DNA from: a virus
Reading direction: 5' to 3' (one strand)
IMG/VR virus record: IMGVR_UViG_3300048925_000679
Location: 1-59,728 of that record
Length of the DNA stretch: 59,728 nt
Numbering within the stretch: position 1 is the first letter of the stretch; every line of letters begins with the position of its first letter. Positions 6,805-56,240 of the stretch are shown piece by piece. The position numbers were made by a program, and so were the translations under genes. The notes under the pieces were generated by a model. The model was given only the letters and a program-made list of their open reading frames with translations. It did not search any database and was not told the DNA's origin.

Positions 6805-6848
6805 CGACACCCACAACAGAAAACCCCCTTAACGAGAGGAACCAAGAA

Positions 6849-6890
6849 GTGAGCACCGCAAGCATACCTAAGCCCAGGAGGCGGCCATGA
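6849..6890 (+). CDS. Possible 13-aa leader peptide
   Basis: A GTG-started 13-codon frame after GAGAGGAACC. Its body carries AGGAGG, the Shine-Dalgarno for the next gene, and its stop overlaps that ATG. It could couple or pace translation after the hairpin. Confidence 0.3.
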   Translation: MSTASIPKPRRRP

Positions 6891-7545: not shown

Positions 7546-7733
7546 TCGTCACCGTTCGCCCTCGTACGTTGCGGCGCCGGCTCATCACCCTCGGAGCCCT
7601 CCTCGCCTTCACCACCGGCAGTGTCACGTATGCGGCTGATGCTCATGCCCTCACCGATCACATCCACACAGGGGTAGCAGCGGATAGGTGTTGGGTGCAG
7701 GTGCCTTTCGGGGCAATGGGAGGACTCCGATGA
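7542..7733 (+). CDS. Small exported protein (63 aa)
   Basis: A basic N-terminus with a double-Arg cluster (RPRTLRRRL) precedes a hydrophobic stretch (residues 14-28) and an AxA-like cleavage site (TYAADAHA). It is probably secreted or membrane-anchored. The remainder is only about 30 residues. Role unknown. Confidence 0.6.
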   Translation: MIVTVRPRTLRRRLITLGALLAFTTGSVTYAADAHALTDHIHTGVAADRCWVQVPFGAMGGLR

Positions 7734-8080
7734 GCGCCGTGGATGCTGTGGTGATGGGTTTGCAGGCCGCGGAATCGGATGCGTTGAAGCAGGGCGCGGT
7801 TCCGGGTTACACCCTCATGGCGCACGGCGCGCTGGAAGGGCTCAAATACGCCGGGTACGCCGTCATTGAACTGCCTAAACGGGTTGATGGGCACTGGCCG
7901 GTAGATCCTGATGATGACGAGTTCCACGTCTGTCGAATCACCCTCAGTCGTGGCGGCGTGTACGCGAACGGTGCGCGGGTCAGCTTGGGCAGCGTCGAAC
8001 TGAACCTGCATGGTGATCACGCCCGCGCGCTCGCCGCTGCCTTACTGGCTGCTGCCGACGTTGAGGAGTCGGGATCGTGA
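7730..8080 (+). CDS. Early protein of unknown function (116 aa)
   Basis: Start at 7730 follows GGGAGGACTCCG and overlaps the upstream stop. The N-terminal half carries helices (VDAVVMGLQAAESDALK, LEGLKYAGYAVIELPKR); the C-terminal half is beta-rich and ends in an Ala-rich helix. Small proteins of this shape are common in mycobacteriophage early arms. Function unknown. Confidence 0.65.
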   Translation: MSAVDAVVMGLQAAESDALKQGAVPGYTLMAHGALEGLKYAGYAVIELPKRVDGHWPVDPDDDEFHVCRITLSRGGVYANGARVSLGSVELNLHGDHARALAAALLAAADVEESGS

Positions 8081-8226
8081 GCCGCCCGGTGGATTTGGTG
8101 GCGGTGAACCTGTCCTTCGCCGGTGCAGCCGCCACTCTCGCTACCGCCATCCCCGGAATCTTCGCAGGGGCTATCGCGGTTTCAGCCCTGCTACTTATCG
8201 GAACACACCTATGGGAGACAAGATGA
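8077..8226 (+). CDS. Small membrane protein (49 aa)
   Basis: GTG start (GTGA overlap). Nearly the whole protein is hydrophobic, with helices at about 7-25 and 27-45, so one or two membrane passes. Its stop overlaps the next ATG. Function unknown. Confidence 0.55.
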   Translation: MSRPVDLVAVNLSFAGAAATLATAIPGIFAGAIAVSALLLIGTHLWETR

Positions 8227-8435
8227 GTCGGGTTGGTGAGCATACCTGTTGGACAATCTGGGGACCGTCGATTATTGACCATAAAGGTCGCCTTCGGCAA
8301 CTCACCCGCATCCGTCGCCAAGTCGGCGAGCAGCGGTTCCGAGAGTTGCGCTACAGCATGCAGACGGCTCAGGCCAGATTGAAAATTTGGCGACTTCTTC
8401 GTGAAATGTACAACGCGTCAGAGTCCGCATCATGA
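8223..8435 (+). CDS. Small basic helical protein (70 aa)
   Basis: The start at 8223 is fixed by an ATGA overlap. Residues 22-65 form an Arg-rich helix (RLRQLTRIRRQVGEQRFREL), so nucleic-acid binding is plausible. No family recognised. Confidence 0.55.
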   Translation: MSRVGEHTCWTIWGPSIIDHKGRLRQLTRIRRQVGEQRFRELRYSMQTAQARLKIWRLLREMYNASESAS

Positions 8436-8758
8436 AGGCCAATAGGACGTATACGAGGTGTGGCCGGTGTGGACATTTCTGCTCCTACCACCACAACGGT
8501 ATATGCCGTCAAGACCTTTGCGAATGCTCGTTCGGCGGTCGAATCACCGTCACGCGCGCTCGCCATCAAAATAGTCGCGGGCGATACAACTGGGTCGTTC
8601 GAGACTATCGGGGACCGAAGGTCTTCATTCGCGAGTTCTCCTTCTCTTACTGGAGCGCCGCCATGAGGGAGGCCAATCGGCTGGCGAGAACTGGCTTGGT
8701 CAATCCGCAAGCCTTGTTTGGTGTTCAGCGCATGGAGTATTCGGCGGTGGAATCGTGA
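8432..8758 (+). CDS. Cys-rich zinc-binding-like protein (108 aa)
   Basis: The first 35 residues hold C10-x2-C13, C17, H20/H21, C25, C30 and C32, a compact zinc-knuckle pattern. The rest is basic and aromatic (SRGRYNWVVRDYRG). DNA or RNA binding is possible. Overlaps neighbours by 4 bases. Confidence 0.6.
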   Translation: MKANRTYTRCGRCGHFCSYHHNGICRQDLCECSFGGRITVTRARHQNSRGRYNWVVRDYRGPKVFIREFSFSYWSAAMREANRLARTGLVNPQALFGVQRMEYSAVES

Positions 8759-9000
8759 CGAACATTAATTCTCATCCGAACCTGTTGAACATCAACGGGG
8801 ATTGGACAGTTTCGTTTCATTTCGGCCATCTCACCGGCCCCGTCTGCCCCGTCAACGGATTGGTCGTAGCGCACTTCGACCGCGGCCTCCGGTTGGCCCT
8901 GATCCCTGCTGATGCTTTGCGGTTAGCGGCAGCCATCAACACCCCAAGAAACCTTCATCCCGATATGTCGGGTATCGCAGCACACCTGGAGGGAATGTGA
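8755..9000 (+). CDS. Early protein of unknown function (81 aa)
   Basis: GTG start in a GTGA overlap. Predicted beta strands in the first half (WTVSFHFGHL) and a C-terminal helix. No motif recognised. Confidence 0.6.
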   Translation: MTNINSHPNLLNINGDWTVSFHFGHLTGPVCPVNGLVVAHFDRGLRLALIPADALRLAAAINTPRNLHPDMSGIAAHLEGM

Positions 9001-9404
9001 GAACGCCACCGTTTCACAATCTGGTTCGCATGTGGGATAGCGACTGGACTGAGGCAGCAGCGGAGATGGTGTACTGGTGTCACGGATTCCATGTCTCAAC
9101 TGATCATCCGTTCGCAGTGGCCCTGAGTTCACTGCCTTCTCAGGACTGGACAATCACCGTGTACTCCACGGAGGAGCTGGTATGGAAGATCACCAATTGG
9201 GTGATCGAGGGCGACCGGCTGAAGGCCAATTGCAAGCCATACCTCGACCTCATGCGCGAATCTCTCAGGCCGGATGACTATCTCATCGAGCTGTGGCTGG
9301 AGACGGAACGAAATTGGCTGATAGCAGAGAACGATCGGCTGCGGGCCGACGCTGAGATGTGGCGGGCAATGTCGGCCATGTACAAGCGCATGGGGGACCA
9401 GTGA
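8997..9404 (+). CDS. Early protein with C-terminal coiled coil (135 aa)
   Basis: GTG start. Residues 85-130 form a long helix with heptad character (LIAENDRLRADAEMWRAM). The N-terminal half is aromatic-rich. It lies just upstream of the WhiB gene and overlaps it. No known family. Confidence 0.6.
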   Translation: MRTPPFHNLVRMWDSDWTEAAAEMVYWCHGFHVSTDHPFAVALSSLPSQDWTITVYSTEELVWKITNWVIEGDRLKANCKPYLDLMRESLRPDDYLIELWLETERNWLIAENDRLRADAEMWRAMSAMYKRMGDQ

Positions 9405-9658
9405 GGAGCCCGTACGAGTTTGGTGATCACTACCCGACTGGTGAGGAATGGCGGGAGGACGCACTCTGCCGACAGGTCAGCCCCGAACTTTTCTTCCCGG
9501 AGAAGGGTGAGTCCAGTCAGGACGCGAAACGGATCTGCGGAATGTGCGCGGTGCGGCAGGAATGCCTGGACTACGCGATGCGGGCGGGGGAGAAGTTCGG
9601 TGTGTTCGGTGGGGTTTCGGAGCGGGGTAGACGGAAACTTCGCAGGAGGGCCGCATGA
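9401..9658 (+). CDS. whiB: WhiB-family iron-sulfur regulator
   Basis: An 85-residue WhiB protein with all four cluster ligands visible: C23, C46, C49 and C55 (ICGMC...EC), the GVFGG turn at 67-71 and a basic C-terminal tail (RGRRKLRRR) for DNA. WhiB proteins bind a 4Fe-4S cluster and usually act with the host sigma-A region 4. Phage WhiB proteins can alter host gene expression or exclude other phages; which applies here is unknown. GTG start at 9401, overlapping the previous stop. Confidence 0.93.
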   Translation: MRSPYEFGDHYPTGEEWREDALCRQVSPELFFPEKGESSQDAKRICGMCAVRQECLDYAMRAGEKFGVFGGVSERGRRKLRRRAA

Positions 9659-10431
9659 ACACCTGCATCCGCGAGACATGTTCAAGGAAAGCGAAATCCG
9701 GGCGCAACCGCGGCTACTGCCACCAACACTACGAAGCACTCCCCGTGCGGGGGTATGTGCCGTCCGATAACGCCAGGGAACGACTCTCCCTTCTCCGATC
9801 GTTCGGTGTCACCCTCGACATGATCGCCGAATCAGGATTGTCGAAGTTCGGTGTGATCTGCATTGAGACGAAGCCGCGTATCAGGGCGTTGACGGAGCAA
9901 AAGTTGATGGCCATCCCGGTCCCTTCGGGGTTGGTGTCGTCACTAGCTGATGTGGATGCGTTGGGGACACGCAGGAGGATTCAGGGTTTGGTGGCTTTGG
10001 GGTGGCCGCAAGCGCTGATCGCCGCAGAGTTACACACGAAGCAGACCGCAGTGTCGGCGTTCACCCGCCGGGAGAAGGTCACTGCATCAACAGCTAAGGC
10101 TGTGCGTGAACTGTATGAGCGGTGGTCGATGACATTAGGGCCATCACCTGTATCGGCACGTCGGGCTCGTGCTGCGGGCTGGCTGCCACCGCTGGCGTGG
10201 GATGACCCTGATGATCCGCTGGAGGTCCCGCATACGTCCCTAGGTGGGCGTGTGGACTTCATGGACCTCTATCGGGACATGCAGTACATCGGCCTCTCTC
10301 AGGAGCAGATGGTGAAGAAGTTGGGTTGCACCCCTTCAGCGTTCGCGCGCCGGCTTCACCGGTATGGGATTGCGGTGGAGGCGTCGTTGCAGTCGTTGGC
10401 GTGGGCCCAGAGGGAAGGCAAAGCAGCATGA
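9655..10431 (+). CDS. HTH DNA-binding protein with N-terminal zinc knuckle
   Basis: A 258-residue protein. Residues 4-26 have C-x4-C-x12-C-x2-H, a small zinc site. Residues 105-140 (GLVALGWPQALIAAELHTK) and 210-245 (MQYIGLSQEQMVKKLGCTP) each look like an HTH, so there may be two DNA-binding units. It follows WhiB directly with a 4-base overlap and the two may act together. Target sites are unknown. Confidence 0.75.
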   Translation: MNTCIRETCSRKAKSGRNRGYCHQHYEALPVRGYVPSDNARERLSLLRSFGVTLDMIAESGLSKFGVICIETKPRIRALTEQKLMAIPVPSGLVSSLADVDALGTRRRIQGLVALGWPQALIAAELHTKQTAVSAFTRREKVTASTAKAVRELYERWSMTLGPSPVSARRARAAGWLPPLAWDDPDDPLEVPHTSLGGRVDFMDLYRDMQYIGLSQEQMVKKLGCTPSAFARRLHRYGIAVEASLQSLAWAQREGKAA

Positions 10432-10592
10432 CCGACACACAGCTGGTGATCATCCGGGCCTTGCTTGGTGAGATCCGCGCCGAGACCATCCAGTTCACAT
10501 CGGATCCACCGTGTCCTGTGCGTCTTGCTGATCGCGGGTTGACGTACCTGGATTGGTTTGAGCAGTGGCTCGCCAAGATGGAGGAAGCATGA
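10428..10592 (+). CDS. Small early protein (54 aa)
   Basis: The start at 10428 overlaps the previous stop. It has two helices (VIIRALLGEIRAE; YLDWFEQWLAKME) joined by a short loop. No family recognised. Confidence 0.55.
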   Translation: MTDTQLVIIRALLGEIRAETIQFTSDPPCPVRLADRGLTYLDWFEQWLAKMEEA

Positions 10593-10789
10593 AGGCAGCC
10601 GCATTGGCGTTGCTCGCCGCGCTCACACTCACAGCTTGCGGAGAACACCAACTAACCGAGGTCGACAGGTACACCGATACCTGCCACGAAAGGGGTGGGT
10701 TTGTGTCTAGGAAGCCCAACTCGTGGTCTGTTGACTACGCCTGTGTCGGCCAAACCACCGGCGCCTCAATACCGCCGATGACTCAGTGA
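10589..10789 (+). CDS. Small predicted lipoprotein (66 aa)
   Basis: A hydrophobic N-terminus ends in the lipobox LTAC at about Cys17, followed by a short exported domain with two further Cys that could form a disulfide. It is in the early operon, so it may reach the envelope early in infection. Function unknown. Confidence 0.65.
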   Translation: MKAAALALLAALTLTACGEHQLTEVDRYTDTCHERGGFVSRKPNSWSVDYACVGQTTGASIPPMTQ

Positions 10790-10795
10790 AGGGCG

Positions 10796-10984
10796 GTGGC
10801 TCCGGTGTCTTCAGCGGTTTTGGTGTCTGGTGTGTGTGCCTGTCGTCACCGTCCTGATGGTCATCACCGTTACATCCTGTATTGCCGGGTGTGCCGGGTA
10901 TGCGGGCTGAACAAGGGGGATTGTCGGGGTAGGGGGCACACGTATGAGCGGTGTGGGTGCACAAGATTCAAGGAGGCAGCATGA
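10796..10984 (+). CDS. Cys/His-rich mini zinc protein (62 aa)
   Basis: Cys or His occurs at about 14 of 62 positions, including CACRH, CRVCRVCG and RCGC. It probably folds around one or two zinc ions. GTG start after GAAGGG; stop overlaps the next ATG. Function unknown. Confidence 0.55.
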   Translation: MAPVSSAVLVSGVCACRHRPDGHHRYILYCRVCRVCGLNKGDCRGRGHTYERCGCTRFKEAA

Positions 10985-11181
10985 TCAAAACGGTGGCCTG
11001 GGTCGCGTGCGCAGCCGTCGCACTCACATTGGTGATCTATGGCGCTTACCGCACCGGCTACGTTCGCGCGTACTGCGCTACCAAATATCAAGCGCAAAGC
11101 ACATGGACTGGGTGGGCAGGGCAGAACGCTGAATGCCTGATCTCCCCGGGCATTCCTGCACGAACCGTGCCGGTGCCGTGA
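10981..11181 (+). CDS. Small membrane protein (66 aa)
   Basis: Residues 4-24 are a single hydrophobic helix, followed by a polar exported or cytosolic tail with two Cys. ATG in an ATGA overlap preceded by AAGGAGG. Function unknown. Confidence 0.6.
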   Translation: MIKTVAWVACAAVALTLVIYGAYRTGYVRAYCATKYQAQSTWTGWAGQNAECLISPGIPARTVPVP

Positions 11182-11351
11182 TGTTCAACGTTGATGAGCC
11201 TTTAGCGGGTATCCCCGAAGCCTTGTGGGATGAACCCGTTGACGGGACTACACCGAGGGAAGCCGCCGCCCATTTTGTGGAGCATCACTGTCGGGGGTGT
11301 TGGGGGATCCTCCTGGAACTCACCATGAAACACGAGAAGGAAACACCATGA
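11178..11351 (+). CDS. Small early protein (57 aa)
   Basis: GTG at 11178, or ATG at 11181. The centre contains HFVEHHCRGCWG, a possible metal site. No family recognised. Overlaps neighbours by 4 bases. Confidence 0.55.
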   Translation: MMFNVDEPLAGIPEALWDEPVDGTTPREAAAHFVEHHCRGCWGILLELTMKHEKETP

Positions 11352-11677
11352 GCTACGACGTGTACGTCTGCTGCCATACCTGCGGCAGTGACCTGATGAG
11401 CAACAGCAACATGACTTCCAATGTGGCCGGGGTTTGGGACAAAGCCGGTGCTCGACTTCGCGATTGGGACGGAAAGACGGGGGTGTCCGTTCTTCCATCG
11501 TTGCAGTCGGCGATAACCACCCTTAATGATCAGTTGCCGTATGAGAGGCAGGAGTACGAAGCGCTGGTGCGGGGCGGTGGGGATTGGGGGACTGTCGATT
11601 CAGCGGTGGAATTCCTAACTCGGATACGTGATGCGATCTGCCGGGATCCTTACGCGGAGATCAAGGTGAGTCACTGA
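11348..11677 (+). CDS. Early protein with N-terminal CxxC (109 aa)
   Basis: Begins MSYDVYVCCHTCGSD, a Cys cluster that may bind zinc, followed by a region with helices that includes LQSAITTLNDQLPYE. It lies directly before the RecA-like ATPase gene and shares one base with it. It may belong to the recombination module, by position only. Confidence 0.6.
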   Translation: MSYDVYVCCHTCGSDLMSNSNMTSNVAGVWDKAGARLRDWDGKTGVSVLPSLQSAITTLNDQLPYERQEYEALVRGGGDWGTVDSAVEFLTRIRDAICRDPYAEIKVSH

Positions 11678-12657
11678 TGGCACTCAAGACACGCCCGCCT
11701 ACCGGCGCGGTGCCCTGGCCGCTGATCCTGGTCGAGGGCGCAGAAAAATCCGGAAAGTCATGGGCTGCAGCGGTCCTATCGGCTTCCGAGAAGGTGGGCC
11801 GCACACTGTGGCTGGACTGGTCTGAAGGTGCCGGCGACGAATATGGGGCCATCCCCGGCGCACGGTACGAGCTGATCGAGCACGATGGGACATGGCCTTC
11901 CATCATCGGCCAAGTAGAAGCTGCCCGTGATGTCGCGGCCGAAGCAGTGAAGAACGGCGACAAACCTGTTGTCCTCGTCATCGACTCCATGACCGCGGAG
12001 TGGGATGACCTCAAGGATTGGGTGGATGGGAAAGCCCGCCGCCGCGAAGCGAACCGGAAGAAACTTGAGAAGGACCCCGAAGCGGAAATCCAGATCACCA
12101 CAGATCTGTGGAACCTTGCCACCGCACGCCATAAGGAGTTGATGCGGATCCTGATGCGCTTCCCCGGCATCGTCGTGATGACTGCGCGGGGCGGCGATCA
12201 GGTCGCCATCGAAAACGGGAAACCCACCAAGGAGCGGGTGTGGAAAGTCGACGGACAAAAGAACTTAGCCTTCGACGCGTCGGTGTGGGTGCGACTGTCC
12301 CGCACGGAGCATCCGCAGATCATCGGAGCCAGATCAGTTCACGCCGGAATTGTTCCCGGCGAGGATAGGCCGAAGCGGATACCCGATCTGACGTTGGAGC
12401 AGTTGGTGTTCGACATCCTAAAGTGCGATCCGAAAACCGCTCACGTCCGGGACTTCGCTTCGGTTCAAGATCGGGTTCTAGATCTGTTGGACAGGGTAGA
12501 TGCGGCCACGTCGAAGGATGAACTATCAGCGTTGTGGCGGGAGGCGAAGGCCGCTGAGGTTTTGAATGTTGGTGTGTTGGATGGTCCGACGGTTGAGGCT
12601 GCGGTGATGGCCAGGGTGCAGCAAGTAGAAGCCCAGACAGTCCAGGAGGCGTCATGA
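11677..12657 (+). CDS. RecA-like AAA ATPase (Sak4-type recombination protein)
   Basis: A 326-residue P-loop ATPase. Walker A is GAEKSGKS (21-28) and Walker B is VVLVID (98-103), with an aromatic/acidic DWSEG segment between. The domain order and the VVMTARGG strand at about 165 resemble phage Sak4-type single-strand annealing or RecA-core proteins. It probably promotes strand annealing or recombination-dependent replication. The C-terminal 60 residues are helical. Nearby are a clamp and HNH proteins. Confidence 0.85.
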   Translation: MALKTRPPTGAVPWPLILVEGAEKSGKSWAAAVLSASEKVGRTLWLDWSEGAGDEYGAIPGARYELIEHDGTWPSIIGQVEAARDVAAEAVKNGDKPVVLVIDSMTAEWDDLKDWVDGKARRREANRKKLEKDPEAEIQITTDLWNLATARHKELMRILMRFPGIVVMTARGGDQVAIENGKPTKERVWKVDGQKNLAFDASVWVRLSRTEHPQIIGARSVHAGIVPGEDRPKRIPDLTLEQLVFDILKCDPKTAHVRDFASVQDRVLDLLDRVDAATSKDELSALWREAKAAEVLNVGVLDGPTVEAAVMARVQQVEAQTVQEAS

Positions 12658-12821
12658 TCCTGGCGGCATTCGCCTGTTGGATATTCCTATTGGCACAGAT
12701 CATCGTGTGCTGGGAACGCCGCGGGTCGGAGTTCGCTCACAAGTTAAGGATCTGTCTAGCTTGGGAGTTCGGCTGCCGATGCGTCATCTGCCATCCGCCG
12801 ACGGAGGTCGAAGGTGACTGA
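12654..12821 (+). CDS. Small membrane protein with Cys tail (55 aa)
   Basis: Residues 3-20 are a hydrophobic helix; the tail has C34, C41, C43 and C46, a possible metal site on the cytosolic side. Its ATG follows GGAGGCGTCATGA, a junction sequence found again at about 19052. Function unknown. Confidence 0.5.
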   Translation: MILAAFACWIFLLAQIIVCWERRGSEFAHKLRICLAWEFGCRCVICHPPTEVEGD

Positions 12822-12987
12822 TTGGTCAGACCCCCAAGACACCGTCGTGGCCCGGTGTTTGACGGTGAAATGCGGTCTCTGCAAAGCCTTACCGGGGGTG
12901 TACTGCCGGGCATTGGATGGCGGGCCTCTTCCCGGGAGGCTGGTTCACCATTTCAGGCTAGACAAACTCGTAAAGGACGACGAATGA
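12814..12987 (+). CDS. Small phage zinc-finger protein (57 aa)
   Basis: The GTG start overlaps the previous gene by 8 bases. It contains C-x2-C (CGLC, about 20-23), then PGVYC at 31, then a His pair at 45-46. This CxxC...P..xC...H layout matches a DNA-binding zinc-finger type common in actinophages, also seen in the 15030 gene. It sits between the recombinase and clamp genes. Confidence 0.6.
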   Translation: MTDWSDPQDTVVARCLTVKCGLCKALPGVYCRALDGGPLPGRLVHHFRLDKLVKDDE

Positions 12988-13193
12988 GAAACGAACATCC
13001 CACCCTGACCTTCCTGAGGAGTGAAGCTACCGCGCATGGTGAGATCGCCGCGGCGTCAACAGATGCCGTCACTATAGAAGGCGACTTCACTCCTGGCCTG
13101 TCTGCGTACGACTTCCGTCCCGGCGCGCGCGTATTCATCCTCACTGAGGATGACGCCATCGCCATCTTTGATCGAACCGGCGTTGAATTATGA
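12984..13193 (+). CDS. Early protein of unknown function (69 aa)
   Basis: Mostly beta-prone, with no Cys or membrane segment. The start at 12984 is fixed by the ATGA overlap; it also overlaps the clamp gene by 4 bases. No family recognised. Confidence 0.6.
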   Translation: MRNEHPTLTFLRSEATAHGEIAAASTDAVTIEGDFTPGLSAYDFRPGARVFILTEDDAIAIFDRTGVEL

Positions 13194-14329
13194 AGTTCGG
13201 CATCGACACTGGTTCCTTGGCGGAGACGATCAACGCCGCCATCAGTTCCATCGCCACGAAAACCACCGCCCCAATCTTAGGTGGGGTACTCATTGAGGCC
13301 CAGATAGGTACGGTGACGTTCTCCAGCTTCAACTATGACCGCGCCACCATTCGGGTGGCACCAGCGGATGTCATGGACACCGACACGATGGTGGTGTCGG
13401 GTCGACTACTGGCGACTGTTGCCGGCAATCTTCCGAAAAGCGGTGAGGCCACCGTTGTCTTGGATGGCGGCGAACTGTCCATCTCAGCTGGAAGAACACA
13501 CTTCCGCCTGCCTGTGATGCGGGCGGAAGACTATCCACACCTACCCGTCCTGGATAGTAGGGATGTCATCGGCACAGTGGACCGGGACGTGTTCACGGAG
13601 GCCGCCAAGATCGTGGGCGGATTCGCATCCACCGATGTGATGCCCGCCAACCTGAGTGCACTCAACCTGTTGTGCACGACGGACACGATGACGTTGCGCG
13701 CCACCGACCGCTACATCATCGGCAACCGTCGTATCCCATGGTCAGGCAAGGATGTTGAGATCAATGTGGTCGCATCTGATCTTCTCGCCACCATCAAAGC
13801 GTTGAGTGGTCACGCCACAGGAGACATCGAAGTGCTATCGAGCGCCAACCTTTTTGGCCTGCGAACACCCACAACCACGGTGATCACCCGGGTTCTTGAT
13901 GCTGAGGAAACTTTCCCGGACACCGGCAGGATTATGCGGCACCCACAGTTTTTCGCCGCGGCCACCGTCGACGTGGGTGACCTGCAAGCGATGCTCAAAC
14001 GTGCCATGGCGGTCGCCGACGACAATGTCGCCCAGGTCGACCTGGAAGTTGATGATGGCGCACTGTCTGTGACCACCACCCACAGTTCGGCAGGCAACAT
14101 CTCCGACGGGTTGGACGCCGTTCACTACGGCGGGACCAGGCGCGTCGCGGTATCCAGTAGGAGGCTATACAACGCGCTCGCCATCATTGATGACCCTAAA
14201 GTCACGGTGGCGTTCCGGGACTCAGGTTTGCACATCCATCTCCATCCCGGCGATATAGACGAAAGCTTGGAACAACCAGATACGGAGACCATCGCCCTTG
14301 TCGGTGGAATCAAGGCGGCACCGCGATGA
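13190..14329 (+). CDS. dnaN: DNA polymerase sliding clamp (beta subunit-like)
   Basis: At 379 residues it has the length of bacterial DnaN and its three-domain pattern. Domain 1 includes a TTAPILGGVLIEA stretch typical of clamps, domain 2 a LRATDRYIIG segment (the conserved ATDR/H motif), and domain 3 ends in a strand-helix. It would encircle DNA and tether DNA polymerase. The host already has a clamp, so a phage copy suggests preferential loading on phage forks or escape from host control. It overlaps flanking genes by 4 bases. No phage polymerase is present in the window. Confidence 0.87.
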   Translation: MKFGIDTGSLAETINAAISSIATKTTAPILGGVLIEAQIGTVTFSSFNYDRATIRVAPADVMDTDTMVVSGRLLATVAGNLPKSGEATVVLDGGELSISAGRTHFRLPVMRAEDYPHLPVLDSRDVIGTVDRDVFTEAAKIVGGFASTDVMPANLSALNLLCTTDTMTLRATDRYIIGNRRIPWSGKDVEINVVASDLLATIKALSGHATGDIEVLSSANLFGLRTPTTTVITRVLDAEETFPDTGRIMRHPQFFAAATVDVGDLQAMLKRAMAVADDNVAQVDLEVDDGALSVTTTHSSAGNISDGLDAVHYGGTRRVAVSSRRLYNALAIIDDPKVTVAFRDSGLHIHLHPGDIDESLEQPDTETIALVGGIKAAPR

Positions 14330-14700
14330 CGGGGTTCAGTGTTGTTGTCCGCCGGCTGATCGCTGAACGGGCCAAGGACTTCAACTCCTCCTGGCCTGTC
14401 TGTGAAGTGATGGCTGTCTGTCAGGGCCGGAAAGCGGAAGCGGCGCACCATCGCCGGCCGCGCGGCGCCGGGGGCTCTAGGCGGGAAGACACGAACCTCC
14501 CCGCGAATTCCTTAGCCGTATGCGCTGATGATCACGCGTGGATTGAGAGTAACCGTGAGGAAGCGTTGCGGTTCGGGTGGCTGGTCCTGCAATCCCAAAC
14601 CCCCGCCGACATCCCCGTACTCCGACGCGGTGTGTGGGTTCGGTTGGACAACGCTGGTGGGTTTGAGCGTGTCGCTACCCCAACCCAGGAGGCAGGATGA
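14326..14700 (+). CDS. HNH-like endonuclease, atypical metal knuckle
   Basis: A 124-residue protein with an HNH-type core: CEVMAVCQG, then AHHRRPRGAGG, an Asn-rich N-x-L-x2-N-S segment, and CADDHAWIESN. The catalytic His pair and the final DxH are visible, but the first Cys pair is C-x4-C instead of C-x2-C. It may nick or cut DNA during replication or recombination. Confidence 0.75.
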   Translation: MTGFSVVVRRLIAERAKDFNSSWPVCEVMAVCQGRKAEAAHHRRPRGAGGSRREDTNLPANSLAVCADDHAWIESNREEALRFGWLVLQSQTPADIPVLRRGVWVRLDNAGGFERVATPTQEAG

Positions 14701-14849
14701 GTGACTGCTGCGCTTCCGGATCGTGCGAGGTGTGCCGTCACCCAAGCGGATACAGCCGGGAACGGCGCGAACAAATCCGCCGGGATTACGAGGATTACAT
14801 ACCGCCGTGGACACGCGAAAGAAACCGTGAAGATGGGGTGCCCGCGTGA
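14697..14849 (+). CDS. Small Cys-rich basic protein (50 aa)
   Basis: Cys residues at 4, 5, 10 and 13 (CCASGSCEVC) suggest a mini zinc knuckle; the rest is Arg/Glu-rich helix. ATG in an ATGA overlap after GGCAGG. Function unknown. Confidence 0.5.
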   Translation: MSDCCASGSCEVCRHPSGYSRERREQIRRDYEDYIPPWTRERNREDGVPA

Positions 14850-15040
14850 ACACGGATGACTTGGTGTTGTGGCGTAGGCGTTGGAGTTATCACCGGAGCG
14901 CTTGGGGCGCGCACCATAAAACACACTCCCACAAGGGAATACGAGTAGAATTGGGGGAAGAATTCGGCCCCAGGCCTGATGCGTCAACATCAGGTGATTC
15001 CCGGGACCTAACCACTACCAGGAGTGGCTATGACAGATGA
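14846..15040 (+). CDS. Possible small protein (64 aa)
   Basis: GTG start in a GTGA overlap. The first 35 residues are Trp/His/Arg-rich (LWRRRWSYH), the rest is polar. Its 3' half overlaps a -10-like hexamer, a hairpin and the next gene's ribosome site, so the far end may not be under coding selection. Confidence 0.4.
   Translation: MNTDDLVLWRRRWSYHRSAWGAHHKTHSHKGIRVELGEEFGPRPDASTSGDSRDLTTTRSGYDR
14946..14994 (+). promoter_or_regulatory. Possible internal promoter and hairpin before the zinc-finger gene
   Basis: TAGAAT at 14946-14951 fits a -10. It is followed by CCTGATG (14975-14981) pairing with CATCAGG (14988-14994) around a 6-base loop. A -35 is not evident. The hairpin lies about 35 bases upstream of the ATG at 15030. 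Confidence 0.35.
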
Positions 15041-15512
15041 TATCGCCGAGAGGCGTATCCCGTACGACTGGGCGGAATTCGAGTGCCCAACCTGCGGCGC
15101 AGCCCCCGATACCCGCTGTCGGGCGAAGTCTGGTCGAACCACCGATGCCCACGCGAAACGGTTGAAGCAGACCCGCCGCATCGTCCGCGCCCGTATCGAA
15201 TACGAGCGGTACGGATGCCAATGCTCACATCCCCTCACTGGGGTTGAAAGCCGATATGGTCTGTCCGCCTACGCGATCACCAAAGGTGGGATAGATCATC
15301 CTCATGACGGTGGCGATCTTTGTCGCTGCTTGAAGGTGTCTCCGAACGCCCCGGAACACATGAGGGACAGGTCGCCAGAGTGGCGTGTCCTGGTGGACCA
15401 CTGGGATGAGTTGAAACAGCTTCTGGCCGAGGAGCACCCGAATGGTTGGGCGCCGAAGCTGTATGCCCGGATGACCACCTTGTTCAAGGCGGCAAGGGCG
15501 GGTGAAGCCTGA
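15030..15512 (+). CDS. Zinc-finger DNA-binding-like protein (160 aa)
   Basis: Residues 18-45 contain ECPTCGAAPDTRCRAKSGR then DAHAKR, the clear actinophage zinc-finger pattern CxxCGAxPxxxC...H. Further Cys lie at CQCSH and CRC (about 63-100), suggesting a second metal site. The ATG at 15030 is preceded by AGGAG. The adjacent HNH and initiator genes suggest a part in replication. Confidence 0.7.
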   Translation: MTDDIAERRIPYDWAEFECPTCGAAPDTRCRAKSGRTTDAHAKRLKQTRRIVRARIEYERYGCQCSHPLTGVESRYGLSAYAITKGGIDHPHDGGDLCRCLKVSPNAPEHMRDRSPEWRVLVDHWDELKQLLAEEHPNGWAPKLYARMTTLFKAARAGEA

Positions 15513-48731: not shown

Positions 48732-49178
48732 GTGCCTGATCTTCCAAGTTATGCGGTGTCCTGGAACGTTTTCGACATTCCGGGGACGGTGCAGGCGGGA
48801 GAGTTGACGCGGCTCGCGTTGGCGAAAGCCCGCGCAATCTTCACCTCCAATCTGGAGCCGACGAGTTTCCTCACGTTCGGTGGGGATTCGCATCGTCCTC
48901 CGCACATCGTGTACGCGAGTGTGAATAATGCTGGCGCCCTGGTCGATAAGGATGGGGCCACTCTCAAACTGTTGGCGAATGATCCGGGTTTGTCGGTGAC
49001 GGGGATTCAGTGGCGGGCGACGATTGTGTTGCCGGTTCCTGGCCCGTTGCAGCAGTTGGAGATCGGCCCGTGGGACGCCCCCGAGGATGGGGATGTTCTG
49101 TTGTTGTCGTCTGTGGTTCCGACTGTCGCGCTTCCTCCGCTATCTGGTGGCGGCGGCATTATCGATGGGACACCGTAA
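48732..49178 (+). CDS. Tail-region protein (148 aa)
   Basis: GTG start. Beta-rich, ending with a Pro/Gly segment. One base overlaps the SGNH tail gene. Function unknown. Confidence 0.6.
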   Translation: MPDLPSYAVSWNVFDIPGTVQAGELTRLALAKARAIFTSNLEPTSFLTFGGDSHRPPHIVYASVNNAGALVDKDGATLKLLANDPGLSVTGIQWRATIVLPVPGPLQQLEIGPWDAPEDGDVLLLSSVVPTVALPPLSGGGGIIDGTP

Positions 49179-50995
49179 TGAGCACACCGATCGTCAAGTA
49201 CCGCCTAACGCCCTACCAGAGGACCGCCGCGGCGTTGGCCACGGAGAACGCGATCCCTTTACAGGGGGAGCGGGTCCGGGAAACCGACACGGGCCGCGAG
49301 AAGACCGGCGACGGATCAACGCATTACAATGACCTTCCGTACAACGAAGCTTTAGTCGAGTACGCGAACCAAGCTGCGTTTACTGGAACTGGGAAGCCCG
49401 GCAAAATCTATGTGGCGTTGGATACTGGTGATTCGTTCCGGTGGTCGGGGTCGGCGTATGTGCGGATCAGTGACCGTGTCACCGCCTCAGGCATCACAGA
49501 CTCTGGAGCGGTGGGACGGTCGGTTGTTCAGGCTGCAACCCAGGCGGCGGCGAGAATAGCGACGGATTCCGGGATGGCGCAGCGCGCCAGGTACGGCGCC
49601 CGAACCGTAGTCGATGGTGATTCGATCACCATCCGCCCCGGCACCGTATCCACATGGAACAGTTCCCCCGGTGGTTGGTCGATGGAGATGGCCCGCCTCT
49701 CCAATGGGCGAATTGACTTGCTGTACAACGCTGGCGTGTCCTCCACGGGGATCACGACCCGAATCTCAAACTTCCCCACGAAAGTCGCCCCGTACACCCC
49801 GGAGACGGTGCTGCTGGCTAACGGCACCAACGACATGTCCATCATGACCTTGTCGCAGTACCTGACGTATCTGGGCCAGTACTACGACCTGGTGCGCGGG
49901 ATCGGTGCGCAACTGATCCTGGGCGGGATTTACCCGAAGAACGTTGACGTCGATAAGGCGTCCTCGTGGAATGCGGGGATTGTGGATTGGGCGAAAACCC
50001 GTGGCGTTTTGGTAATCCCGTTCTGGGAGTTGGGTGACCCTACGACGGGGGCGTGGCCTTCCGGTTGGTCGACTGATGGTGTGCACCCGGATTACGATTC
50101 GCTGGCGTTCCCGGCGATCGGTAAGTTCGCGTGGCAAGCCGTGCAGCGCGCCTACACGGAACCGGTCGCAGCATCAGCTCGGTATGCCACCGATCCGGGG
50201 GCGTTGCTTACCTGCTTCTTCACTGATCTGACTGCGACGATTACTGGTGCGGCGACGATCACGGGGATTGTGTCGACGACGGGGACGTTGGCGGCGGGGG
50301 ATTACACGTATCGGGTGGTGGCCGGTAACCATTACGGGCAGGTGTCCGGGGTTGCTGATTCCACGATTACTTTGTCCGCTTCGACGGGGGCGACGATCAC
50401 CTCCGGGGCGTCTGGTTCGTATACGACTCGGCGGGTGTTCCGCCAGTCACCAGGCGATACGACGTTCTATTACATCGGGAACATCAATGTTGCTGGTACG
50501 CAAACGTTCACCGATAACGGTATCGCGAACGGGTACGCGTACCGGGCTGGTGATACCACCAGGTATCCGACGGGGATGATCACTGGCGGTTGGCAGGACG
50601 CGCAAACGTTAGCGTACGGACCTCCTGTTCGGGACGGAGCTTCGGAGGGGATTCGGGGCAACATTTTCCGGGGCGCCCGCTGCGAAGGGTCCGCTGTGTA
50701 CCGGTCGGACCGCTTCCTCATCACCGGGTTAACGGCCGGGCAGGTGGTGACGGTGAGTGTGAAGTGTAAGGGCGCGAACACGGCCGGGCAGGATGCGTTG
50801 CAGATGCGGTATTTCAACCCTGCCGGTGACACGCAGATCGATGTGGTGGCTTTGGGGGCTACTCGGTTCGGCACTGACTGGGGATTGATTTACGGGAGGA
50901 CGACAGTGCCGACCGGATCGGATCGGGTGTATGTGTGCCTTGAGGGCACTGCTACCAATCCGTTTAGCGACTGGGCTGAATTGAGGGTGTTCTGA
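49178..50995 (+). CDS. Tail protein with SGNH hydrolase domain (605 aa)
   Basis: An N-terminal tail-attachment part (1-110, LTPYQRTAAALATENAI), then an SGNH esterase at about 140-325: VVDGDSITI (Ser149), NAGVSSTG, LLANGTND, and DGVHPD (Asp300, His303). The C-terminal 270 residues are two beta domains that may bind glycans. It probably removes ester groups, for example acetyl, from surface glycan at adsorption. Catalytic Ser-Asp-His are all present. Confidence 0.85.
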   Translation: MSTPIVKYRLTPYQRTAAALATENAIPLQGERVRETDTGREKTGDGSTHYNDLPYNEALVEYANQAAFTGTGKPGKIYVALDTGDSFRWSGSAYVRISDRVTASGITDSGAVGRSVVQAATQAAARIATDSGMAQRARYGARTVVDGDSITIRPGTVSTWNSSPGGWSMEMARLSNGRIDLLYNAGVSSTGITTRISNFPTKVAPYTPETVLLANGTNDMSIMTLSQYLTYLGQYYDLVRGIGAQLILGGIYPKNVDVDKASSWNAGIVDWAKTRGVLVIPFWELGDPTTGAWPSGWSTDGVHPDYDSLAFPAIGKFAWQAVQRAYTEPVAASARYATDPGALLTCFFTDLTATITGAATITGIVSTTGTLAAGDYTYRVVAGNHYGQVSGVADSTITLSASTGATITSGASGSYTTRRVFRQSPGDTTFYYIGNINVAGTQTFTDNGIANGYAYRAGDTTRYPTGMITGGWQDAQTLAYGPPVRDGASEGIRGNIFRGARCEGSAVYRSDRFLITGLTAGQVVTVSVKCKGANTAGQDALQMRYFNPAGDTQIDVVALGATRFGTDWGLIYGRTTVPTGSDRVYVCLEGTATNPFSDWAELRVF

Positions 50996-51936
50996 TGCCA
51001 ACGATGTATGCCACGGCCGCGGAGTGGGCCGGGCTGAATCTGTTCGTCCCCGCCAACACGATTGGTGAGGAGTCCGATACCGGTAAGCGGAAGTCCGGTG
51101 GGACGGCAGGCAACTACTGGAATTCGTTGTCGTACACCAGCACCGCGTCGGGATCGTACAACTTCGACACGGTGCCCAGCGGTTCGGCGGTGGCCACTGC
51201 GGCGACTGCCACGACTTTGGCGGTTCGTGACTCGAACGCAAACCTCTCGGCGGATGGGTTCATTCCCTCTTCAACATCCACAGCGACGGCTGCGGGAACA
51301 ACAACGCTGACGGTGGATTCCACTGAGCTGCAGTTCTTCACCGGCACCACCACGCAGACAGTTCTGTTGCCGACAACGGGTGTGCCGGTGGGGCGACTGT
51401 TTGTCATCTTCAACACCTCCACCGGGTTGGTGACGGTTCAATCCTCGGGTGCGAACACCATTGGGTACGCCCCGGCTTCGGGTGGGATTCTGGTGGTGCA
51501 GGCGAACACCGCGACCCCGACAACGGCGGCGCATTGGACTGTCCGGTCGTATGCTGCGACTACCAGTTACACGTCTGGTGTGATCAGTGTGGCATTGCGG
51601 GACAACAACAACATCCTGTTCGCCCGGGCTCTGATTGCGGCGTCAACCACAACTGCCACCGCGGCCGGTACGACGACGTTGACTATCTCCAGCCCGACGA
51701 TTCAGATCTTCACGGGGTCGACGACGCAGACGATCACTTTGCCGACGACGACGGTGATTTTGGGGCATCGGATCACGTTCATCAACAAGTCGTCTGGTGC
51801 CCTGACGGTGAACTCTTCGGGTGGGAACTTGGTGGCGACGGTGGCCGGTGGGGCGACGGCCGAGGTGATGGCGAATCAGTCGACACCGACGACGGCCGCG
51901 CACTGGTCGGTGCTATCCAACGGTGGCACGGCTTAG
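50995..51936 (+). CDS. Tail fibre protein with two ~105-residue repeats
   Basis: Residues 75-184 and 199-307 repeat the same pattern: (L/V)A(V/L)RDxN, then STxTATAAGTTTLT, FTG(T/S)TTQT, and TPTTAAHW. The first 60 residues may attach it. Repeated beta domains of this sort act as fibre modules and receptor-binding spacers. ATG shares one base with the previous TGA. Confidence 0.75.
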   Translation: MPTMYATAAEWAGLNLFVPANTIGEESDTGKRKSGGTAGNYWNSLSYTSTASGSYNFDTVPSGSAVATAATATTLAVRDSNANLSADGFIPSSTSTATAAGTTTLTVDSTELQFFTGTTTQTVLLPTTGVPVGRLFVIFNTSTGLVTVQSSGANTIGYAPASGGILVVQANTATPTTAAHWTVRSYAATTSYTSGVISVALRDNNNILFARALIAASTTTATAAGTTTLTISSPTIQIFTGSTTQTITLPTTTVILGHRITFINKSSGALTVNSSGGNLVATVAGGATAEVMANQSTPTTAAHWSVLSNGGTA

Positions 51937-52724
51937 GTTGGGCAGTTGACCTGGGTGTGGCCGAACGGTGCCGCCGTCGTGCACGGCACAGGCGGACTCA
52001 GCTGATCAACAATCAGCGCCCCGATCTTCTCGGCAAGCCACACATGCCCCGCATCGTTCGGGTGAATCCCATCCTCCCCGATCAACTCCGGATGCCCGAC
52101 CAGCCAGCCATCAGTGATCGGATCGACCCACACCGCGTGGGCCTTGACCGCTTCAGTTCGGATGATGTCGCGGGCCTCCAACACCTCGGGTGGGGGTTCC
52201 CCGACAGGCCACGCAGGACCGATCACCAACAATGATGCAGTCGGGGCTTTCACTTTGATCGCCGCCAACGTGCCATCCACAGCAGCAGGTAGATCCTGCA
52301 GGTGCTCGGTGTTGTTGCGCGACCCGAATACCACCACCAGTCGGGAGTTCGACTTCACCACCTTCGGTACCTCCGCGGCGAAGTCGGTTCCGTTGTGTCC
52401 GGGTTTCCCGTACCCGGATGCACCCTCAGCGCCTTTGAGGATCGACACCGGATGGTCCGGGTTGAGTTGCCTCTCGACCAGTGCGGGCCATCCGTGATCG
52501 CCTTGCCCGCCCATCCCTGACCCGCTGGTGTAGGAGTCGCCGATCACCGACACGATCGCCGCCGGCACTTCCGGTGGGGGTGGGGTGTACCGGGATTCGT
52601 ATGCCGGTGGTGTCTTCGGGTACAGGAACATGGCTGTCCCGGCAATCACCGCGGTAACTGTGAGACCGGCGAGGACCAAGTATTTCAGCCGGGATGTCTC
52701 TGTGGAGTTACGTCGGTGGCCCAT
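51933..52724 (-). CDS. Membrane-anchored SGNH hydrolase, lysogenic-conversion candidate
   Basis: A 263-residue protein. Residues 13-35 are one membrane helix, 37-55 a Pro-rich linker, then an exported SGNH/GDSL esterase: VSVIGDSYTSG (Ser64), FGSRNN (134-137) and DGIHPNDAGH (Asp218, His221). It probably cleaves acyl esters on the cell envelope. It is leftward within a rightward late operon and has its own -10, so it could be expressed from the prophage. It ends by overlapping the fibre gene's stop. Confidence 0.84.
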   Translation of the reverse strand: MGHRRNSTETSRLKYLVLAGLTVTAVIAGTAMFLYPKTPPAYESRYTPPPPEVPAAIVSVIGDSYTSGSGMGGQGDHGWPALVERQLNPDHPVSILKGAEGASGYGKPGHNGTDFAAEVPKVVKSNSRLVVVFGSRNNTEHLQDLPAAVDGTLAAIKVKAPTASLLVIGPAWPVGEPPPEVLEARDIIRTEAVKAHAVWVDPITDGWLVGHPELIGEDGIHPNDAGHVWLAEKIGALIVDQLSPPVPCTTAAPFGHTQVNCPT

Positions 52725-52732
52725 GGTCGCGG

Positions 52733-52738
52733 ATCGTA
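52733..52738 (-). promoter_or_regulatory. Predicted -10 of the SGNH hydrolase gene
   Basis: Leftward TACGAT ends 8 bases before the ATG, with no Shine-Dalgarno between, predicting a leaderless mRNA. The -35 region is not consensus. Confidence 0.45.
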
Positions 52739-52801
52739 ACCCGGGCGTGCGGGGGCTGGAATCCGCCGATCGTATGACAAGTCCTCAACGTGGAGGTCCC
52801 T

Positions 52802-52924
52802 GTGAAAACACTCCTGATTTACGCCCTCACCGCACTCGCCGCGCTGGGTGTGGAAGCCGGGCTCGCCTACCTGTGGCTGATCGGTGTGGCCCCCCAGTTT
52901 GAGAAACAACTCTCCCACCACTAG
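52802..52924 (+). CDS. Small membrane protein (40 aa)
   Basis: GTG start after TGGAGG. Residues 3-31 are hydrophobic (one helix) and the tail is polar. It overlaps the end of the convergent RHH gene by 4 bases. Function unknown; a small lysis-associated protein is possible. Confidence 0.55.
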   Translation: MKTLLIYALTALAALGVEAGLAYLWLIGVAPQFEKQLSHH

Positions 52925-53088
52925 CGCTGGTTGCGTTTCCGTCGCCCGGCTTTGACGTAACGCTCCAAACCTGCCCGGACAGCATCCGTGACCGTCTCAC
53001 CGTTCTCGGCCGCGATCTCCTGGGCTTCTAGGTACAGCTCGTCGGGGATGCGGAAGGATCGTAGTGGGGTGCGGGGCTGATTAGGCAC
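52921..53088 (-). CDS. Ribbon-helix-helix DNA-binding protein (55 aa)
   Basis: The pattern LRSFRIPDELYLEAQEIAAE followed by NGETVTDAVRAGLERYV is a clear RHH/CopG fold (beta strand, then two helices). The basic end (KAGRRKRNQR) supports DNA binding. GTG start overlaps the end of the upstream gene by 8 bases, so the two are one leftward operon. It may bind the direct repeats upstream of that operon. Confidence 0.75.
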   Translation of the reverse strand: MPNQPRTPLRSFRIPDELYLEAQEIAAENGETVTDAVRAGLERYVKAGRRKRNQR

Positions 53089-53407
53089 GCTGGTTTTCGA
53101 AAATTGCCAGTGCGTGACGGAGTCCGGCCAGATAACTGTCGGCCCTCAAGTGCTCCGGGGTGTCGATCTCAGTTGACATGAGTGCTTCAAACGCGGCGCG
53201 TTCATCATGCTGAAGAGCGGTGTACCAGAGTCCCTCATCAAGGGGTTCTGGTGGAGCGGAGCCGAGGCGGGCCTCCGCAGTGTCTGCCGAACCTTCGACG
53301 GCCCGGAGCCGCATCGAGAAGGTGTGCCATTGGTCCGGTTCGATGCGCTGGGCGAGCCAATGCGCGAATGTGGCGAACTCAGGCGAGTTGTAAACGTCAA
53401 TAGACAT
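53081..53407 (-). CDS. Unknown protein, first gene of the RHH operon (108 aa)
   Basis: A mostly helical, acidic protein with no motif I recognise. The start at 53407 is chosen because GAGG lies upstream and the direct repeats are left free; a start at 53455 would bury them. With the RHH gene it resembles a toxin-antitoxin layout in reverse order, but no toxin fold is seen. It is convergent to the small gene at 52802 and divergent from 53479. Confidence 0.6.
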   Translation of the reverse strand: MSIDVYNSPEFATFAHWLAQRIEPDQWHTFSMRLRAVEGSADTAEARLGSAPPEPLDEGLWYTALQHDERAAFEALMSTEIDTPEHLRADSYLAGLRHALAIFENQRA

Positions 53408-53425
53408 ACCGCCAAGCCTACCTCG

Positions 53426-53463
53426 TGTCATAACACCAAGCAAGCCACATGTCATAACACCAA
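53426..53463 (-). promoter_or_regulatory. Two direct repeats upstream of the RHH operon
   Basis: TGTCATAACACCAA occurs at 53426-53439 and again at 53450-53463, 24 bases apart. Read leftward, TTGGTGTTATGACA may contain a -10-like TATGAC. The repeats lie just upstream of the leftward gene starting at 53407 and before the rightward gene at 53479, so they could be operators for the RHH protein. Confidence 0.6.
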
Positions 53464-53635: not shown

Positions 53636-53962
53636 GTGAAGAAGCTCCTCACCGACCTGATCAACGCCGCCATCGACAACATCCTCACCCGCATCAATCT
53701 TGAGAAGCGCCTAGATGATCTGCGGCAGGACGCCAAGGCAGAACTCGATGAACTGCGGGACAAGGCATTCGCCGAACTAGAGGAGACCCGCGACAAAGCG
53801 TTGGCGATGGTGAAGGAATCCCTCCCGGAGATGGCGGCGGCCGTCAGTCAGGCGGCAGTCACCTCCGTGTTCGACCACACCCAGATAGACGAGACCACCG
53901 ACCGTGTGACGGATGTCTTCACCAACATCCTCGACCGGCTGCCATTCGGGTTCGGCAAATGA
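53636..53962 (+). CDS. Coiled-coil protein before the lysins (108 aa)
   Basis: GTG start after AAAGG. Residues 5-70 form one long charged helix (RLDDLRQDAKAELDELRDKA) with a repeated DKA unit, followed by Ala-rich and hydrophobic helices. No membrane helix is obvious. Probably a minor structural or lysis-linked protein. Confidence 0.65.
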   Translation: MKKLLTDLINAAIDNILTRINLEKRLDDLRQDAKAELDELRDKAFAELEETRDKALAMVKESLPEMAAAVSQAAVTSVFDHTQIDETTDRVTDVFTNILDRLPFGFGK

Positions 53963-55230
53963 GTTTCGTCTGGAAAGCGGCGCAACGCCTCAAGACTCCA
54001 GAACAGGTCATGGCCGTCATCATCCAGACGGTTGACGAACTGAACATGCCGGACAAGCGGGGTGCTGCGATCTGCGCCGGTATGTGCGTCGCGCAAGAGT
54101 CCGACTTCTGGTGCCCATGGAACGCCGCAGATCCTGAATCGAAGAATTATCCCTACGATTCGCAATCCGACGACGGCCGATCGGTGGGCTACTACCAGCA
54201 GCAAAAGGGCCCCCGTGGGGAACTGTGGTGGGGGCCGACGTCGCAGGAAATGGACCTCAAACTGTCCACCCGCGAGTTCCTTACCCGGTTGAAGAAGAAC
54301 GGCTACAACGCATCGAATGCGCAGGCCGCCAACGACTCCGTCCAGGCAGTGCAGCGTTCCGGTGTCCCGCAGGCGTACGCGAAGCACTGGGGACGAATCA
54401 ACACCCTCTACGACAGCGTCCAGAGTGGCGCAGTACAGGAGCCCGCAGTGGGAGTATCAGGCGACCCGATCTGGCTGGAGGACGTACTACGTCCCGCACT
54501 CGGAGACCGGCTCAAAACCTTACCCGGATGGCAGGACTCCGGCGTCGGCGGAACCATGGGCCAAATCTGGGGGATGATCTGGCACCACACCGGCAACGGT
54601 GCGGCCACCGCCCAATCGATCCGAGACGGACGCCCAGACCTCGCAGGCCCGTTGTCCCAGTTGCACATCGCGCAGGACGGCACTGTCACCATCGTCGCTG
54701 TCGGGCCGTGTAATCACGCCGGCAAGGGATCCTGGGATGGGCTGCCCACTGATAACGCGAACGATCGCACCATCGGCATCGAGTGCGCGTGGCCGCGGGA
54801 CACCAGCATCACGGAAGCCACTCAGACGCGGGAGCGTTGGCCGGACGCGCAGATCATTTCGATGCGGGACACTGCAGCGGCGTTGTCGCTGCATCTTGGC
54901 GTGGATGCGTCGCACAACATTTCACACAGTGAGTGGGCACGATTCGGGCCTGCGGGGTTTAGGCAGGGCAAGTGGGATCCGGGGAACCTGGACATGAATT
55001 GGTTCCGCGGCGAGATCGCCAAGGACATGCGTGGCGAGTTTGATAAACCGTCTACGCCTCCGGTGGTGACACCACCCGTCGGCCCGACTCCGATCCCGCG
55101 CGGTGACGCGGATCTTCAGCTCACCACACGGTTCAACTGCCTCGGCGGACAAACCCTCGTCGAAGCTCTCGCGGAAGTGCGGGACAAGGTGCTCGGCACC
55201 AATGACCGTAAGAAGACAGGAGCGATCTGA
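53959..55230 (+). CDS. lysA: Lysin A: lysozyme-like plus amidase endolysin
   Basis: 423 residues. The N-terminal 1-150 resemble a lysozyme/GH23-like lytic domain (CVAQESDFW with Glu47, then VGYYQQQ). Residues 195-350 are a PGRP-type amidase: IWHHTG (209-211), CNHAG (H253), IGIECAWPR, H323 and D340 (KWDPG). The C-terminal 60 residues, after a Pro-rich linker, are a possible cell-wall-binding end. It cuts peptidoglycan at the end of infection. Confidence 0.92.
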   Translation: MSFVWKAAQRLKTPEQVMAVIIQTVDELNMPDKRGAAICAGMCVAQESDFWCPWNAADPESKNYPYDSQSDDGRSVGYYQQQKGPRGELWWGPTSQEMDLKLSTREFLTRLKKNGYNASNAQAANDSVQAVQRSGVPQAYAKHWGRINTLYDSVQSGAVQEPAVGVSGDPIWLEDVLRPALGDRLKTLPGWQDSGVGGTMGQIWGMIWHHTGNGAATAQSIRDGRPDLAGPLSQLHIAQDGTVTIVAVGPCNHAGKGSWDGLPTDNANDRTIGIECAWPRDTSITEATQTRERWPDAQIISMRDTAAALSLHLGVDASHNISHSEWARFGPAGFRQGKWDPGNLDMNWFRGEIAKDMRGEFDKPSTPPVVTPPVGPTPIPRGDADLQLTTRFNCLGGQTLVEALAEVRDKVLGTNDRKKTGAI

Positions 55231-56240
55231 TGCGCATTGGAGATACCTACGTCGGGCTGGGTGAGGGTGATGAGTCCGATGAGGTTGGCAAGATCATCGA
55301 CTACGTCCGCCGCATGTACACCCCAGCCCGCAATACCGTCGCACCCGGACGCTTGTTCACACCAGCACTGACGTCTGAGATCAAACGTGAGCAGGAAGTG
55401 TTTGTCTCACAAGGAAAACTGAAGGGCGGGGAGTTCATCCCCGGCGTCGTGAACCTCGCATGGAAATACGCTTCCGGGTACCTGAAGAAGGACAAGCTGC
55501 TTCCGCTGTACTTCTCTGCGGAGGGGCACATGTCAGACATGAACGTCGGCCCGGTGGCGTGGGTGGGGCAGGTGCTTCATAACGAAGGCCGGGCGCTGCA
55601 CTTCCCAACGTTCTACGTCAACAACGCAATTCCGTTCAAGACCAGGACTGGCATCACTGAACTCGCGCGCCGCGTAGGGCAGACGGTCCAAGACAACGGC
55701 GTCAAATTCCCTGAGGGAACCCCGTGGGCGCTCGGCGGATTCTCCGAGGGTGGGCTACTGATCTCGAAGTTCTACCTCGAATACCTGATGCCCGGGAAGC
55801 CACTCAACTGGCGATTGAAGGATCTGCGCGGTGTCATCTGCTGCGGGTCGCCATACCGGGAGAAGGGTGTCGTCGCCGAGTGGATCCCCGACCCGCCGGC
55901 ATCTGATCGCCAAGGCATCTCCGATGTCCGACTCACTGATACCCCGTGGTGGTGGAAGGAAGTCGCCCGCCATGGCGACTTGTACACCGACAACGAATCA
56001 TCCGGGGATCGGGCGTTGTACAAGACGATGTGCTACAAGATCATCGCCGAAGGCAGCTTCTCCGGCGGTAAGGCGGGATTCCTGGCCCGCGTCATGGACC
56101 TTCTCACGCCGTCCGATGACTTAATCCCGGTGGCTCTGGCCATCTTCGACGGTTTGAAGTTCCTCACCAATATGTCTCCTCATGGGATCTACAACATGGA
56201 TCCGGCCGTGCAGTTCCTGCGTGAACGCCTCGCAGCCTGA
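55230..56240 (+). CDS. lysB: Lysin B: mycolyl-arabinogalactan esterase
   Basis: 336 residues with an alpha/beta-hydrolase core. The nucleophile elbow GFSEG has Ser172, an Asp near 250 (HGDLYTDN) and a His near 318 (SPHGIYN) complete the triad. Lysin B detaches the mycolate outer layer, so the host must have mycolic acids. ATG shares one base with the lysin A stop. Confidence 0.94.
   Translation: MRIGDTYVGLGEGDESDEVGKIIDYVRRMYTPARNTVAPGRLFTPALTSEIKREQEVFVSQGKLKGGEFIPGVVNLAWKYASGYLKKDKLLPLYFSAEGHMSDMNVGPVAWVGQVLHNEGRALHFPTFYVNNAIPFKTRTGITELARRVGQTVQDNGVKFPEGTPWALGGFSEGGLLISKFYLEYLMPGKPLNWRLKDLRGVICCGSPYREKGVVAEWIPDPPASDRQGISDVRLTDTPWWWKEVARHGDLYTDNESSGDRALYKTMCYKIIAEGSFSGGKAGFLARVMDLLTPSDDLIPVALAIFDGLKFLTNMSPHGIYNMDPAVQFLRERLAA

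Follow-up and report, generated by a model that had tools for sequence, protein, structure and literature searches.

Prophage genes that alter the receptor glycan of the host and thereby block adsorption of kin phages are described for Shigella phage Sf6 (Oac), phage P22 (GtrABC) and Pseudomonas phage D3 (O-acetylation) (PMC9558356, PMC10883804, PMC13123978). The gene pair discussed here, as a proposed cassette, would resemble these systems in that a prophage-encoded change of the surface glycan acts against adsorption of kin. In contrast, the known systems are membrane transferases which add groups and whose counterpart is a glycosidase tailspike, whereas both partners of the present pair are SGNH proteins, the carriers are actinobacterial phages, and removal of a group is possible. 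In P22-like phages, oac and gtr adjoin the tailspike gene, and the genes of Cor and Llp adjoin tail genes as well. Llp of phage T5 is a small envelope protein inactivating the receptor of its own phage. The same is reported for lambdoid Cor (Uc-Mass 2004, cited in PMC10883804). Unlike P0002, the envelope SGNH protein of our locus, both are non-enzymes and act on a protein receptor, FhuA.

On the virion side, SGNH proteins of E. coli phage G7C (gp63.1) and of Klebsiella prophage fibres deacylate surface polysaccharide and are proven deacetylases or esterases, according to PMC13123978. They share the virion SGNH domain with our tail protein P0001, while a secreted SGNH partner is undescribed in the passages of that study considered here. 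These passages discuss acetylation and deacetylation in exclusion, a twin SGNH pair being absent from them, and among the open-licence articles searched, the surveys of Gordonia and Arthrobacter phages (PMC5559632, PMC5513430) name no esterase other than lysin B. A further point of reference are the acyltransferase-3/SGNH systems (OafA type; in mycobacteria, an Rv0518-like gene behind an acyltransferase-3 gene); in known O-acylation systems, acyltransferase-3 constitutes the membrane half (PMC9558356). P0002 is nearest to their SGNH member; however, it is an orphan half, as no acyltransferase-3 gene is found in its 59,728-base genome. The mechanism proposed below joins two known facts, namely that tail SGNH proteins deacylate surface glycans and that prophages alter receptor glycans against their kin.

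The window analysed here, 59,728 bases in length, is the entire virus record IMGVR_UViG_3300048925_000679. Its integrase (1-1116), repressor (1725-2207, leftward) and antirepressor (2759-3700) genes give it a temperate appearance, in line with the lysogenic lifestyle assumed in a preceding sequence-only reading. The tail gene run closes with P0001 (49178-50995, rightward; 605 aa), composed of an N-terminal virion part, an SGNH esterase domain and a C-terminal beta-rich part, followed by a rightward tail ORF of 313 aa (50995-51936) that weakly resembles the tail fibre family phrog_31660. The stop of this ORF overlaps that of leftward P0002 (51933-52724; 263 aa), an Rv0518-family relative with a predicted membrane anchor. 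The sequence-only reading had placed two SGNH hydrolases side by side; two SGNH enzymes are indeed present, but they are not strictly adjacent because the tail ORF stands between them. P0002 forms a leftward island together with a small ORF of 55 codons (52922-53089, approximate start; a weak, below-cut-off resemblance to Rv0623-like or ribbon-helix-helix regulators) and a 124-codon ORF opening the island (53081-53455; no family match), and is followed by the rightward lysis genes (53959-56240). P0002 lies outside the lysogeny module of its genome. A scan for promoters (sigma-70 consensus) and terminators remained empty; by eye, TACGAT is found 8 nt upstream of the ATG of P0002, with no clear ribosome site, a weak indication of the -10 element of a possible leaderless promoter (52725-52745, leftward).

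The SGNH assignment of both proteins, as originally claimed from their Ser-Asp-His triads, is confirmed by domain searches. P0001 matches PF13472 at residues 147-305 (E 9e-13, 49.5 bits; curated cut-off 32.9) and the esterase/lipase family phrog_19622 of PHROGs (7e-155), and its catalytic residues Ser149, Asn218, Asp300 and His303 are invariant among aligned relatives. Relatives at about 55% occur in Mycobacterium phages Kersh, Pier, Colt and Cane17, while scanning viral contigs gave one partial match. Among 401 genomes of a single family, six have N-terminal matches and one has a match of full-length type, the latter with no secreted SGNH within the 18 kb examined. P0002 matches PF13472 at residues 60-227 (E 2e-17, 65 bits; cut-off 32.9), with Ser64, Asn137, Asp218 and His221 conserved across aligned relatives and a hydrophobic helix predicted at about residues 12-33, in agreement with the claimed membrane anchor. 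Against NF045548 (Rv0518 family GDSL lipase), it scores 200.5 bits (2.6e-59), below the equivalog cut-off of 300 bits, and is hence related to this family rather than assigned to it. No matches were obtained when viral contigs were scanned with P0002 as a single protein. An origin of one SGNH protein as a duplicate of the other can be dismissed, as P0001 and P0002 are hardly similar (blastp E 0.14) and their branches in the tree are largely separate.

Using tblastn with P0002 and two of its relatives, leftward homologues were found in Gordonia and Arthrobacter phages, and in each region examined the convergent tail gene next to the homologue also carries an SGNH domain, even if annotated only as 'minor tail protein'. 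With additions from viral and bacterial contigs (L011, L012, L013, L016 (identical to L084), L076 and L007) as well as from the comparison set described below, 18 distinct pairs of tail and secreted SGNH were found in actinobacterial phages and prophages, 17 of them convergent; the sample is not random since most pairs were located via the secreted gene. The tail SGNH is weak or below the Pfam cut-off in Matteo, TripleJ, L106 and L107, and that of L007 shows up in PHROGs alone, while for the secreted gene of BrayBeast the Ser motif and the start are unconfirmed. Every secreted partner exhibits a predicted hydrophobic N-terminus or a lipobox. Among the regions examined, no phage-borne secreted SGNH of the P0002 type was found without a virion SGNH, whereas the virion SGNH occurs without a secreted one in L128, JKSyngboy, Jasmine and Kersh. 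The exception in orientation is L007, a prophage-like contig and kin of the window, where the pair is kept but the secreted SGNH is a lipoprotein encoded on the same strand 44 bp past the tail SGNH (9499-11764); block I of this tail SGNH reads NDS, not GDS. In L106, one tail SGNH gene is adjoined by two consecutive leftward SGNH genes (13194-14799).

Since pairs located via the secreted gene are biased towards it, 30 viral contigs were additionally drawn by the upstream minor tail protein alone, of which the 16 that extend 4.5 kb or more downstream were informative and were checked by Pfam for SGNH domains. Both SGNH genes were present in five of them (one being TripleJ, known beforehand), the tail SGNH only in one, the secreted SGNH only in none and neither in ten. 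Accordingly, a secreted SGNH accompanies the tail SGNH in 5/6 contigs, compared with 0/10 contigs lacking it (Fisher one-sided p = 0.0014, a value which is indicative because the contigs are related). Where the tail SGNH is missing, a beta-helix spike often takes the place of the last tail protein. A chance adjacency of two SGNH genes is ruled out by recurrence and this blind comparison; at the sequence level, both SGNH domains, the predicted anchor and the recurrent pairing can be regarded as established.

Comparisons of related genomes further indicate that tail and secreted SGNH genes move and are replaced as a unit. Gordonia phages Matteo, Budski, Eyes and DirtyBoi belong to different genera and are nevertheless 93-99% identical over at least 2.4 kb. 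The shared core starts about 50 bp ahead of the secreted gene, includes this gene and the C-terminal part of the tail SGNH, some 525 codons, and ends short of the N-terminus of the tail protein; some of these phage pairs share further stretches outside the core, shorter or longer. Conversely, the near relatives TripleJ and Kukla have flanks of 91% and 80% identity, while both SGNH genes are without DNA similarity, and L007 matches the window through codon ~57 of the tail SGNH, after which both partners diverge. In Belphegor, the secreted gene lies in the middle of the structural operon, adjoining the virion SGNH, whereas JKSyngboy carries a virion SGNH at the same position and no secreted gene. 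The secreted SGNH is therefore linked with the tail gene for receptor recognition, and both are replaced jointly, as expected of a receptor-linked conversion gene; a linkage to the lysogeny module instead of the tail misfits Belphegor as well as the window itself. The sequences of both partners co-vary weakly (Mantel r 0.15, p 0.08; Spearman 0.21, p 0.04), which does not support deep co-evolution and argues against a tight fit between both proteins but not against a common substrate.

Both genes occur and are exchanged together across numerous unrelated viruses of actinobacteria, and the anchored SGNH therefore probably alters the surface of the infected cell in such a way that further viruses fail to attach. 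The reading we favour, and consider somewhat probable, is a two-part receptor cassette, in which tail esterase and anchored SGNH act on the same acyl decoration and thereby provide superinfection exclusion. During adsorption, the tail SGNH would bind and deacylate an acyl-decorated glycan or glycolipid of the host surface, while the leftward SGNH, anchored in the membrane of the carrier cell, would alter the same decoration, removal being the simplest option. Related phages would then fail to attach, and released virions would escape trapping. Expression of P0002 in the lysogen, the common substrate, the direction towards deacylation and the exclusion phenotype are what we infer. The position of P0002 outside the lysogeny module, the empty promoter scan, the weak co-variation of the partners, the same-strand order in L007 and the phages having a virion SGNH alone speak against this receptor cassette.

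The descent of the secreted partners bears on the direction of the chemistry. A rapidly built tree of 70 domains shows them dispersed among host enzymes with 14 label changes, at least five of them forced by well-supported branches, so that the genes, judging from this topology, have been captured from hosts repeatedly and independently. P0002 itself falls into a mycobacterial clade, with its nearest relative (51%) in a Mycobacterium MAG (L033), and P0002-like genes of mycobacteria stand directly behind an acyltransferase-3 gene in 34/41 loci (PF01757 confirmed). Among the pairs, Arthrobacter phage Kukla is the sole one with an adjacent acyltransferase-3 gene, leftward gp31 (L005:4729-5883), which together with the adjoining secreted SGNH makes up a complete two-gene O-acylation system. 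The secreted partner thus seems to derive from the machinery by which the host acylates its own surface. Because its family usually sits behind acyltransferase-3 genes, P0002 might attach or relocate an acyl group instead of removing one. In its full form, this alternative regards the leftward SGNH as the acceptor-side half of an O-acyltransferase which, with an acyltransferase-3 of the host (in Kukla, of the phage), masks the receptor in the manner of Sf6 Oac. The mycobacterial gene order and the two halves in Kukla fit it, as does a match of the predicted P0002 model, whose SGNH core is confident, to the SGNH domain of a Salmonella lipopolysaccharide acetyltransferase (6se1); yet this match stands lower in the list than the best ones, which are hydrolases (TesA, carbohydrate esterases), and Kukla is alone among the pairs in having the second gene nearby. 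We hence regard an acyltransferase half as unlikely. The sequence-only reading is thus partly supported: the functional link between the two SGNH proteins is strengthened by recurrence, shared cassettes, paired replacement and blind comparison, whereas removal need not be the only chemistry in view of the acyltransferase-3 context. In the MAG contig L033, positions 4312-15451 comprise two Rv0518-like SGNH genes, including the nearest P0002 relative, and three acyltransferase-3 genes.

Two other explanations dispense with an action in the lysogen or with the functional link. The secreted SGNH might act at a late lytic stage, removing receptors prior to lysis and thus sparing progeny from adsorption to debris and doomed cells, with little role in the lysogen. 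The same-strand order in L007 could mean late expression of the secreted gene, and in Belphegor and the window this gene lies within or beside late genes, outside the lysogeny module; however, its convergence with the late genes in 17/18 pairs, and the fact that in Matteo, TripleJ, Kukla and Popper it shares its strand with the repressor or integrase region, make a purely late-lytic role improbable. Alternatively, the gene could be host-fitness cargo inserted at a tolerant end of the tail module and connected to the tail SGNH by position, not by function. Accessory genes are commonly found where the late operon ends, and both the host origin of the secreted genes and the weak co-variation of the partners would be in line with cargo. 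This explanation nevertheless conflicts with the tracking of the virion SGNH in the comparison set, which holds even within the structural operon of Belphegor, and with the joint replacement of both genes, leaving it with little likelihood.

Returning to the receptor cassette, its principle might extend beyond esterases. A few cases among contigs without a tail SGNH suggest that envelope gene and tail enzyme correspond in their chemistry. A general cassette of actinobacterial phages is conceivable, tentatively and with a probability we place slightly below even: a receptor-recognising tail enzyme would be passed on together with an envelope enzyme of host origin whose chemistry matches its own (an esterase with an SGNH, a depolymerase spike with a glycosyltransferase or polymerase), and a single recombination joint near the tail anchor domain would switch recognition and self-exclusion in one event. 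Provided that the pair has a common substrate, the secreted partner would offer a genetic handle on the receptor, which is known for few actinobacterial phages; its host relatives would indicate an O-acyl group of the kind that acyltransferase-3/SGNH systems produce. A common substrate would also explain how recognition of the host and self-exclusion change jointly, as one module, in mosaic phage genomes.

Some further loci may be recorded. Gordonia phage GOATification carries two adjoining rightward genes annotated as esterases directly past the portal gene (L026:3410-6511), while a leftward partner is absent from the stretch inspected. In phages that are related through an upstream tail gene but lack a tail SGNH, the position past the last tail gene is occupied by a GT2 glycosyltransferase gene in L119 (11357-12355) and by an ORF of 464 codons with no known family in L113 (8805-10196). 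In the same position, Wzy-like proteins are encoded in L132 (4045-5406; convergent, a weak match) and L129 (14128-15561; same strand).
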